From Gallionellaceae bacterium (GTDB lineage Bacteria; Pseudomonadota; Gammaproteobacteria; Burkholderiales; Gallionellaceae), in contig JAVBYO010000014.1 in the NCBI GenBank assembly GCA_030823955.1, forward strand, positions 1 to 64,000: DNA of 64,000 bases, in the 5' to 3' direction. A program made the translations under genes and the position numbers. The notes beneath the pieces are model-generated. The model was not told the origin of the DNA. It made no database searches and saw only the letters and a list, made by a program, of their open reading frames with translations. Shown in pieces: positions 6,499 through 9,632 of this stretch (positions are counted from its first letter, which is position 1; each line of letters starts with the position of its first letter).

Positions 6499-6914
6499 GC
6501 GAGCTGTCCACCAAGCCTTATTTGATCCGCGCGATCTATGATTGGTGTGCAGACAGCGGACTGACGCCGTATCTGGCGGTACAGGTGGATGAATACACCC
6601 ATGTACCGATGGCTTATGTGAAAGACGGCAAGATCGTTTTGAACATCAGCGTCGATGCGGTCAGGAACTTGCACATCGGCAACGAGGACATCAGTTGCAG
6701 TGGGCGCTTTGGCGGGGTCTCGCATCAGATCGGCGTTCCCGTCAGTGCGGTCATGGGGATATTTGCCAAAGAGAACGGGCAAGGTTTGGTGTTTCAGGGG
6801 CAAGACTCGATACCGATCTTGAGCGGACTCACGTCGGGAAGCGGGACGGATGGTGAAGATCCGCCGAGTAGTCCGGCCCCACAGGGCAAACCGAAACTCA
6901 GAGTCGTAAAATAA
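6495..6914 (+). CDS. sspB: ClpXP protease specificity-enhancing factor SspB
   Basis: SspB tethers ssrA-tagged proteins to ClpX. The family signature is intact: STKPYLIRAIYDWC at the N-terminus, LNIS and FGGVSHQIGVPVSAVMGIFAKENGQG in the core. The C-terminus is a flexible proline-rich tail ending in KPKLRVVK, the usual ClpX-docking peptide. The start is a GTG within the sspA stop (GTGA). Length 139 residues is normal. A bidirectional terminator follows at once. Confidence 0.94.
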   Translation: MSELSTKPYLIRAIYDWCADSGLTPYLAVQVDEYTHVPMAYVKDGKIVLNISVDAVRNLHIGNEDISCSGRFGGVSHQIGVPVSAVMGIFAKENGQGLVFQGQDSIPILSGLTSGSGTDGEDPPSSPAPQGKPKLRVVK

Positions 6915-6945
6915 AGAAGCCGCAGAATCTCTGCGGCTTCTTTTA
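6914..6945. terminator. Bidirectional terminator between sspB and rpoH
   Basis: A 14-bp perfect stem (AAAGAAGCCGCAGA at 6914-6927, complement at 6931-6944) with a 3-base loop has a T-run on the plus strand and an A-rich side that reads as T on the minus strand. It can end both the sspAB and the convergent rpoH transcripts. Confidence 0.93.
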
Positions 6946-6962
6946 TGCGCTAACCTTTTCTC

Positions 6963-7820
6963 TCAGGCCATCGCCATCATCGAGGCATGCATCTTGGCCA
7001 TGGCTTTCTGCTCGATCTGACGGATACGTTCAGCCGAGACAGCGAACTCGGCGGCAAGATCATGCAGCGTCAAAGCCTTGTCCGTATTCAGCCAGCGCGC
7101 CTCAATGATGCGGCGACTGCGCTCGTCCAGACTGTCCAAGGCCTGTTTTAGACCCGCACTCTCCAGCTTCTCGAATTCGACACGCTCAAGCACTTGATCG
7201 GGCTCATTCTCGCTATCTGCGGCCAAATAGGCGATTGGCGCGAAGCTGTGTTCATCATCCGTGCTGTCCGGTTCCAGCGACATCTCATGATTGCCGAAAC
7301 GCGTCTCCATTTCGACCACATCATGCTCGCTCACATTCAATTCCTGCGCGATACGGGAAACCTCCTGAGGCCGGAGCGCACCCAGACCCTGTTTCATGCT
7401 GCGCAGATTGAAGAACAATTTACGCTGTGCCTTGGTGGTCGCGATCTTGACCAGACGCCAGTTACGCAGGATGTATTCATGGATCTCGGCGCGTATCCAG
7501 TGCAAAGCGAACGACACCAGACGCACACCGCGGTCAGGGTCGTAACGTTTGACGGCTTTCATCAGTCCGATATTGCCTTCCTGGATCAGGTCGGCCTGGG
7601 GCAGGCCGTAGCCCGCATAACCGCGCGCGACACTGACTACGACGCGCAGATGCGAGAGCACCAGAGAGCGTGCCGCATCCAAATCGTTGTCACGACGGAA
7701 GCGCGAAGCCAGCGTCAACTCCTCCTCATGCGTCAGCACGGGGATGGCCTTGACGGATGTAATGTAACTATCAATGCTGCCGACGGCTGACGGCATAGGT
7801 AACGACATGTTGTAGCTCAT
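6963..7820 (-). CDS. rpoH: RNA polymerase heat-shock sigma factor sigma-32
   Basis: The 285-residue sigma-70 family protein has the core-binding/-10 region (DLIQEGNIGLMKAVKRYDP, then FALHWIRAEIHEYILRNWRLVK) and a C-terminal helix-turn-helix (LTLHDLAAEFAVSAERIRQIEQ). The motif QRKLFFNLR is the RpoH box that marks this subfamily and is involved in regulated turnover. It directs transcription of chaperone and protease genes. A perfect AGGAGG (7829-7834) precedes the ATG, and a CIRCE-like operator covers the promoter, suggesting that HrcA also controls this gene. Confidence 0.97.
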   Translation of the reverse strand: MSYNMSLPMPSAVGSIDSYITSVKAIPVLTHEEELTLASRFRRDNDLDAARSLVLSHLRVVVSVARGYAGYGLPQADLIQEGNIGLMKAVKRYDPDRGVRLVSFALHWIRAEIHEYILRNWRLVKIATTKAQRKLFFNLRSMKQGLGALRPQEVSRIAQELNVSEHDVVEMETRFGNHEMSLEPDSTDDEHSFAPIAYLAADSENEPDQVLERVEFEKLESAGLKQALDSLDERSRRIIEARWLNTDKALTLHDLAAEFAVSAERIRQIEQKAMAKMHASMMAMA

Positions 7821-7841
7821 GGTTGATACCTCCTGTCGAGA

Positions 7842-7871
7842 ATTCTAGCACTCACCCATCGAGAGTGCCAG
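7842..7871 (-). promoter_or_regulatory. rpoH promoter (CTGGCA-N18-TAGAAT)
   Basis: On the minus strand a -35-like CTGGCA (7866-7871) is followed 18 bases later by the -10-like TAGAAT (7842-7847). Transcription would start near 7835, giving a short leader that contains the AGGAGG ribosome site. The assignment rests on consensus resemblance only. Confidence 0.5.
7845..7871. promoter_or_regulatory. CIRCE-type HrcA operator over the rpoH promoter
   Basis: The 27-bp inverted repeat CTAGCACTC-N9-GAGTGCCAG matches the CIRCE consensus TTAGCACTC-N9-GAGTGCTAA at 8 of 9 and 7 of 9 arm positions with the exact 9-base spacer. It lies between the putative -35 and -10 boxes, where HrcA binding would block RNA polymerase. 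CIRCE is classically found before groESL and dnaK. Confidence 0.8.
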
Positions 7872-8075
7872 CCCCTTGAGACACTTAAAATTTTGGCTGG
7901 TAAGAGGCTATGCGCTACGGACAGATAATATATAGATATTGTACGAATCAAAGTTGATAAAACTGAGGCATAATCCATTCATCTAGGATGGGTTCTAGTG
8001 AGCATTACGGTCAAAGCGAGCAGGCCTCGTAAAATATAAAAAGAGTCGTTAAGCCGGGGGTAACGGAGTCCGTAC

Positions 8076-9632
8076 ATGAACAAAGAAGAAGAATTAAGGG
8101 CTATCAGCAAACTGGTATTCGAGCTGACCATCACCAGCAGCCTGACGTCGGATCTGGATGTGCTGCTGGAGCGATTATTTTCGATTTTGCGGGATTATCA
8201 CGATCTTCCGCTGGAGCCACGCGGTGCGGTGGTGTTGCTGAATCCGCGCGGACGTTATTTCCAGGTCGCGCAATTTGGTATGGAGCCGGCCTGGAAGTCC
8301 AAGCAGCGCTGGGATTTCCAGGCGCTGGTGCCAACCGGGGATTCCGTAACCAGCCGGGTGGAGACTGTCTCCGTCAAGAGCGAGACCGGGCAAGAAGAAT
8401 CACAGCAGCGGCTATTTCTTCTCCCCCTGTCTATCGACGGCAAGGGGATCGGCTATACAGTACTGTTCGTGCCCTTGGCCTATCAGCCGACGGTCATACA
8501 TTTCGACTTCATGAACGATCTGGCGCGCGCGCTTTCCGGCTTGGTGAATCGGGCATTGACCAGCGAAACGTTGCGTATCCGCGAGCTTGAGCTGGAAGAG
8601 GCGCGTGCGGATGCGATACGCAGCCTGGGAGTGGCATCGGAATATCGTGACAACGAAACGGGTTGGCACATCATGCGCATGACCAACTATGCCCAGGCGA
8701 TCGCAAAGGCGCTGGGCCTGTCTTCGGAGCTGCGCGACCTGCTCTACATCGCGGCTCCCATGCATGATGTCGGCAAGATCGGCATCGCCGATGCGGTATT
8801 ACTCAAGCCTGGTAAATTGACCAGCGATGAATATGATGTCATGAAGACGCATACCAAGATCGGCGTCACTATCCTGACCGGCAACGATACATTGATTGCG
8901 GCTGCGCGTGACATCGCCGGGTCACACCACGAGCGCTGGGATGGAACGGGATATCCGCAGGGTTTGGCCGGAGAACAGATTCCGATACTGGCACGGATCT
9001 GCTCCGTCGCCGATGTATTCGATGCGCTCACCTCGACGCGTCCCTATAAACAGGCATGGTCGATGGAAGAGGCGAGAGTCTGGATCATTTCGGAATCCGG
9101 CAAATATTTCGACCCGGCCATCGTGGAAGCCTTCAAGAGCGCGATGCCAGAAATATTGCGAGTACGTGAGTTATACCGCGACGACATCATCGATCCCAAG
9201 CAGGTACTGACGCTGCCCCCGCTCAAGCCGCGCGAGAACGCATGGATACCGTGGGACGAAAGTCTCAGTGTCGGCATAGACATCATTGATGAGCACCATC
9301 GTTACCTGTTCGATCTGATCAACGACCTGTTCGAAGTCGTCACCAACAAACAGGGTGCGCGCGAAGTCGCGCGCGTCATCAAAGCGCTGGATGCTTATGC
9401 CAAAGTCCATTTTCGGGCTGAGGAGCAGATGATGGCACACTATGCGTTCGCGGGTGTCGAGCAGCAGGAACAGCAACACCATGCTTTCGAAGCAAAGATC
9501 AGGGAGTTCTACGAAGAGTTGCATGCCAATCCGCTGGTTGCCCAGTTCGATGTGTTGGCGTATCTGCGTGACTGGCTGGTGAAGCACATCCAGGTGGAGG
9601 ATGCCAAGCTGCGAGTGTTGGTCGAAGCCTGA
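8076..9632 (+). CDS. GAF - HD-GYP - hemerythrin fusion, putative oxygen-responsive c-di-GMP phosphodiesterase
   Basis: The 518-residue protein has three parts: a GAF-like sensor (about 15-180), an HD-GYP phosphodiesterase (about 195-380; HDVGKIG near residue 230 and HHERWDGTGYP) and a C-terminal bacteriohemerythrin (about 390-515; IDEHHRYLF, HFRAEEQMM, QQQHHAFE, HIQVED) that keeps the histidine/acidic diiron ligand pattern. HD-GYP domains hydrolyse cyclic di-GMP, and hemerythrins bind O2 at a diiron site. The fusion suggests that oxygen or redox state sets c-di-GMP level and so motility or attachment; that is inference. There is no membrane segment. ACGGAG precedes the ATG. It ends five bases from fliR on the other strand. 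Confidence 0.9.
   Translation: MNKEEELRAISKLVFELTITSSLTSDLDVLLERLFSILRDYHDLPLEPRGAVVLLNPRGRYFQVAQFGMEPAWKSKQRWDFQALVPTGDSVTSRVETVSVKSETGQEESQQRLFLLPLSIDGKGIGYTVLFVPLAYQPTVIHFDFMNDLARALSGLVNRALTSETLRIRELELEEARADAIRSLGVASEYRDNETGWHIMRMTNYAQAIAKALGLSSELRDLLYIAAPMHDVGKIGIADAVLLKPGKLTSDEYDVMKTHTKIGVTILTGNDTLIAAARDIAGSHHERWDGTGYPQGLAGEQIPILARICSVADVFDALTSTRPYKQAWSMEEARVWIISESGKYFDPAIVEAFKSAMPEILRVRELYRDDIIDPKQVLTLPPLKPRENAWIPWDESLSVGIDIIDEHHRYLFDLINDLFEVVTNKQGAREVARVIKALDAYAKVHFRAEEQMMAHYAFAGVEQQEQQHHAFEAKIREFYEELHANPLVAQFDVLAYLRDWLVKHIQVEDAKLRVLVEA

Follow-up and report, generated by a model that had tools for sequence, protein, structure and literature searches.

A CIRCE repeat lies between rpoH and a divergent gene

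The window, as we call the whole 64,000-nucleotide stretch of Gallionellaceae DNA analyzed here, carries rpoH and, across a shared 255-bp intergenic region, a divergently transcribed gene (Table 1). An earlier note on this DNA had assigned rpoH from the letters and their translations, and the assignment held in a protein-family search. The note had also described a 27-bp repeat close to the CIRCE consensus with the exact 9-base spacer, which we confirmed. Read on the rpoH strand, it is a 9-9-9 inverted repeat, CTGGCACTC-TCGATGGGT-GAGTGCTAG (7845–7871 reads CTAGCACTCACCCATCGAGAGTGCCAG on the plus strand). It matches the consensus TTAGCACTC-N9-GAGTGCTAA at 15 of 18 positions, including 12 of 12 in the core, and has the exact spacer; the GCACTC/GAGTGC core is thus unbroken.

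Table 1. Features of the rpoH upstream region, in window coordinates.
Feature	Position	Strand	Evidence or remark
rpoH (sigma-32)	6963..7820	-	TIGR02392, 401.6 bits (cut-off 323.1)
Shine-Dalgarno sequence AGGAGG of rpoH	7829..7834	-	read from sequence
-10 hexamer TAGAAT, from right CIRCE arm plus three bases	7842..7847	-	promoter scan; final T conserved
CIRCE operator, predicted HrcA site (9-bp arms, 9-nt spacer)	7845..7871	-	3/18 mismatches
-35-like hexamer CTGGCA of sigma-70-like rpoH promoter, from left CIRCE arm	7866..7871	-	promoter scan; TTGGCA, TTAGCA or CTGGCA in relatives
Divergent gene, HD-GYP-like/bacteriohemerythrin protein	8076..9632	+	unlikely operator target

Dinucleotide shuffles gave a chance expectation of 0.01 for such a repeat in the window, and base composition predicts ~8e-5 such sites for the 255-bp rpoH upstream region. 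The same calculation predicts ~0.8 sites with at most three mismatches in a genome of this size (2.25 Mb), so the quality of the match would not by itself be significant genome-wide, and the case must be made from position and conservation. Both speak against a chance palindrome, which the comparative data below in practice rule out and to which we assign a negligible probability.

The divergent gene unites HD-GYP-like and bacteriohemerythrin domains and may encode a cyclic-di-GMP phosphodiesterase that senses oxygen or iron. Because CIRCE lies within the shared intergenic region, it could act on this gene and not on rpoH. However, CIRCE lies 24 bp from the rpoH ATG (7820) and 204 bp from the divergent gene. 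In addition, a relative of the divergent gene was found beside rpoH at 0 of 80 related loci, examined up to 1.5 kb upstream, although 74 of the 80 keep the CIRCE. The gene is therefore an unlikely operator target, and we consider this reading very improbable.

The rpoH transcript would begin at about 7835, giving a very short leader. An RNA thermometer at the rpoH start gained no support: folded at one temperature only, an approach that can miss a thermosensor, the 221 nt from this predicted transcript start were as stable as shuffled sequence (z -0.31). A search of 6900–8150 against Rfam produced no match above gathering scores.

The same genome encodes HrcA and has a second CIRCE before groESL

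The genome that contains the window (2.25 Mb in 36 contigs, 85% complete) has one hrcA gene, without stops, that scores 322.7 bits against TIGR00331 (cut-off 197.2). Only two CIRCEs with at most three mismatches occur genome-wide, the rpoH site and a site with one mismatch preceding groES-groEL, where gene order was read from the sequence and groES was confirmed by search. The groESL site adjoins a sigma-32-type match, CTTGAA...CCCNAT. Both partners by which the earlier note proposed to check its idea, an hrcA gene and a CIRCE before groESL, are therefore present.

No CIRCE was found before the genome's own hrcA, either by pattern search or by eye in the upstream stretch, and none was seen at hrcA in Burkholderiales among the matches listed. 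This genome, and perhaps the whole order, appears to lack hrcA autoregulation. In several other orders, a CIRCE does accompany hrcA among the matches listed (as in genomes G237, G327, G347, and G253).

The rpoH site is conserved in relatives and lost together with hrcA

To assess conservation, we examined the 80 rpoH genes nearest in sequence to that of the window. A CIRCE with at most four mismatches directly precedes the start of 74 of them; the best candidates at the other six have 7–8 mismatches. Among the 74 is the rpoH of Nitrosomonas europaea (L080), whose CIRCE departs from consensus at a single position. The search for hrcA covered 40 of these 80 genomes. Among the 34 with an rpoH site, hrcA scored over the cut-off in 28, was a contig-end fragment in one, and was not detected in five; these last six are mostly metagenome-assembled genomes (MAGs), possibly incomplete, so absence of hrcA is weak evidence here. 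The six genomes without an rpoH site divide equally: three lack hrcA (L023, L029, and L031) and three have it (L030, L060, and L070). In L030 the rpoH start is unusual, with the match starting at residue 11. In the two Nitrosospira genomes, L060 and L070, the CIRCE is gone or unrecognizable and GGAACTT still precedes rpoH; rpoH seems to have escaped HrcA control here while the repressor stayed. Gallionella STC_7 (L031, whose sequence matches G144) retains the left CIRCE arm, and its right arm and spacer have decayed. One MAG in the match list, L046, is labeled Bordetella parapertussis, but its rpoH is 64% identical to that of the window and falls among environmental MAGs, so this species label looks doubtful.

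We then compared 150 Burkholderiales genomes, the window's own and 149 with completeness of at least 95%. hrcA scored over the cut-off in 132, was absent from 17, and was a broken relic in one. A CIRCE with at most two mismatches is present in 131 of the 132 hrcA-positive genomes versus 0 of the 18 hrcA-less or relic genomes; in the sole hrcA-positive exception, G069, no rpoH was detected. By hand tally at the same threshold, 113 genomes have two CIRCEs, 11 have one, seven have three, and 19 have none.

rpoH was detected in 148 of the 150 genomes (149 matches), and 147 upstream regions could be compared, 130 from hrcA-positive genomes and 17 from genomes in which hrcA is absent or a relic. A CIRCE with at most four mismatches precedes rpoH at 130/130 hrcA-positive loci versus 0/17 hrcA-less or relic loci (Fisher p = 1e-22, uncorrected for phylogeny). 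Most of the hrcA-positive sites are close to consensus (0–1 mismatch in 100 of 130, the window's site with its three mismatches being weaker than most), and the best candidates at the 17 other loci have 5–9 mismatches. Only 1 of 1470 shuffles reached four or fewer mismatches. The losses of hrcA are spread across eight GTDB families (f1, f4, f19, f33, f39, f40, f43, and f49), and f1, f4, f33, and f49 also include hrcA-positive members with the rpoH site; the counts allow for kinship by this family tally only. Conservation in relatives, which the earlier note had named as a check, was thus borne out in both sets.

The relic, G118 (G118:C49:23701-24150), has two in-frame stops in a genome already without CIRCE, and is hrcA loss caught midway. 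In another genome, G085, two genes score above the rpoH family cut-off, and each has its own CIRCE.

To look beyond Burkholderiales, we used 187 genomes of the class Gammaproteobacteria, three of them Burkholderiales; 132 have an hrcA above the cut-off. A CIRCE with at most three mismatches precedes rpoH in 26 of 30 sampled hrcA-positive non-Burkholderiales genomes (one, G241, counted on a partial match only) versus 1 of 10 hrcA-negative genomes. The exceptions are G350, G275, G309, and G306, which have hrcA and no rpoH CIRCE, and G351, which has a 3-mismatch CIRCE before rpoH and no hrcA. A hand comparison of the 27 non-Burkholderiales genomes with both a CIRCE and rpoH among the matches listed placed the CIRCE at most 400 bp upstream of rpoH in 24 (exceptions: G210, G327, and G331). 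The presence of the site in nearly all hrcA-bearing relatives examined, and its absence from almost all that lost hrcA, indicate that one heat-shock system very likely governs the other.

The arms of the operator supply a predicted sigma-70-like promoter

The earlier note placed the operator between the -35 and -10 boxes of rpoH. Its overlap with the promoter stands, but 'between' is slightly off, as the arms themselves supply the hexamers. A scan of the region returned a single sigma-70-type promoter, predicted to span 7871–7842, and the operator covers nearly all of it. The arrangement CTGGCA-18-TAGAAT scores 9/12, and a TG at 7850–7849 precedes TAGAAT as an extended -10. Because this simple scan expects 0.6 matches per shuffle, the promoter call leans on conservation in relatives too.

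For comparison, we used CIRCEs at 24 of 30 groE loci, leaving out three from hrcA-less genomes, one at a contig end, and two without a CIRCE (G086 and G124, each of which has a second groES). Numbering the first base of CIRCE as 0, T24 and A25 of the TAnnAT motif are invariant in the rpoH CIRCEs, and 126 of 129 sites retain T29, a base beyond the palindrome (G115 had too little flank to be scored); only 1 of 24 groE sites has a T at the equivalent base. In 48 of 130 rpoH sites, position 3 of the left arm has changed to G, producing a better -35 (TTGGCA), and its symmetric partner is never altered. The conservation of T29 and this one-sided change argue for a sigma-70-like promoter built from the operator. 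We also looked for selection on symmetry in the covariation of the outermost CIRCE bases (position 1/27), with no significant result (p = 0.15 and 0.18).

These same signs of promoter constraint would be expected if the conserved sequence were a strong core promoter (TTRGCA-N18-TAnnAT, or a sigma-E promoter in relatives) that resembles CIRCE, with HrcA uninvolved, and the -35 and left half do persist in the hrcA-less genomes G144 and G249. The right arm argues otherwise: its GAGTGC lies outside the hexamers of both promoters except for the TG, yet is near-invariant in genomes with hrcA and decays in those without, as in the 130/130 versus 0/17 contrast. We consider a promoter without HrcA improbable. 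Our preferred reading, to which these comparisons lead us to assign a probability of roughly 0.88, is that the rpoH site functions as a CIRCE, with HrcA repressing the gene by promoter occlusion.

A sigma-E-type promoter is interlaced with CIRCE in relatives

The flanks of the rpoH sites revealed a second promoter type. Of the 129 rpoH sites scored in Burkholderiales, 56 have GGAACTT (at least 5/7) at -16 from CIRCE, versus 0 of 24 groE sites. Exactly 16 bp after it, TC from the CIRCE arm is followed by TNA, which places the -10 in the arm and spacer. The spacer has an A at base 11 in 81 of 129 rpoH sites versus 4 of 24 groE sites, and this A co-occurs with GGAACTT (50/6 versus 31/42, p = 2e-8, uncorrected for phylogeny). 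Scored as one unit, GGAACTT-N16-TCTNA (threshold at least 9/11, spacer mostly 16), it is present at 97 of 130 hrcA-positive Burkholderiales rpoH loci, against a null of 9%, and at 27 of 30 loci from the class set, against a null of 8%. Among hrcA-less rpoH loci, the corresponding counts are 4 of 17 and 6 of 10, against a null of 15–16%.

The window has no such unit, its best score being 7/11, and its genome encodes RpoE (308 bits). To judge from its sequence, the window has lost the sigma-E-type promoter and retains only the sigma-70-like one. E. coli K-12 has TGAACTT-N16-TCTGA before rpoH, which we take to be rpoHP3, and no CIRCE (best candidate, 8 mismatches). In Bordetella bronchiseptica, a sigma-E homologue transcribes rpoH in vitro, and the SigE-dependent rpoH (fam) promoter, like E. 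coli rpoHP3, is of the relatives' GGAACTT-N16-TCTNA type (PMC3490749). The window differs in being without such a promoter, and HrcA is nowhere mentioned in PMC3490749.

These patterns can be accommodated by an ancestral arrangement that we consider about an even bet. In the class Gammaproteobacteria (in the GTDB sense, including the former Betaproteobacteria), rpoH control would originally have been a ~45-bp triple overlay of a sigma-E promoter (its -10, TC|TNA, shared between CIRCE arm and spacer), a sigma-70 promoter (its hexamers being the CIRCE arms), and an HrcA operator, such that one repressor gated both envelope-stress and housekeeping transcription of rpoH. Where HrcA was lost, as may have happened in the ancestry of E. 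coli, only the promoter half would have been kept, making rpoHP3 a relic, and the window would represent the opposite loss.

A model for HrcA control of sigma-32

Textbook descriptions usually treat heat-shock control by the HrcA repressor and by the sigma-32 activator as two parallel circuits, and in Gram-positive, Bacillus-type systems GroEL supports HrcA activity. The comparative evidence supports the earlier note's proposal that HrcA repression of rpoH may join the two. HrcA bound to CIRCE would cover both sigma-70-like hexamers and exclude RNA polymerase. With GroEL occupied by unfolded protein, HrcA activity would fall, and rpoH and groESL would be derepressed together; sigma-32 would then further activate groESL. 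With HrcA repressing both rpoH and groESL and sigma-32 activating groESL, the circuit would form a coherent feed-forward loop. The sequences themselves show the operator, hrcA, the groESL CIRCE next to its sigma-32-like promoter, the conservation, and the joint loss with hrcA; from these we infer HrcA binding, repression, the GroEL signal, and the loop dynamics.

If this model holds, the parallel circuits would become serial in most of the hrcA-bearing Gammaproteobacteria examined, with GroEL occupancy setting sigma-32 transcription. Deletion of hrcA would raise the entire sigma-32 regulon, and the E. coli model, without HrcA, would be the exception.

Relation to known systems

Our searches of the open literature brought up no paper in which HrcA controls a betaproteobacterial rpoH, though the survey of beta-, gamma-, and epsilon-proteobacteria by Permina and Gelfand (2003) may already list the betaproteobacterial sites. 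HrcA is not mentioned in PMC5343134, and the available parts of papers on Laribacter and Xylella mention HrcA and RpoH with no link between them. The idea of HrcA acting over rpoH is already known in principle from Geobacter sulfurreducens, a deltaproteobacterium in which a perfect CIRCE was predicted before rpoH in 2004 (PMC545781). As in the window, that site is a prediction only. In the part of PMC545781 available, Geobacter is the sole genome in Table 8 with an rpoH site, its hrcA-grpE-dnaK-dnaJ locus also has a CIRCE, and overlap with a promoter is not described. Nor did these searches bring up a paper describing CIRCE and a sigma-E promoter in such an interlaced arrangement, and of the findings here this nested element is the likeliest to be new.

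The arrangement at rpoH shares its operator, repressor family, heat-shock target, and promoter location with HrcA/CIRCE control of groESL and hrcA-grpE-dnaK-dnaJ, and differs in that the target is a sigma-factor gene. It also differs in layout: the 24 groE CIRCEs sit just downstream of a sigma-32-like CTTGAAA...CCCTATTAT element, whereas at rpoH the CIRCE and the core promoter fall on the same stretch.
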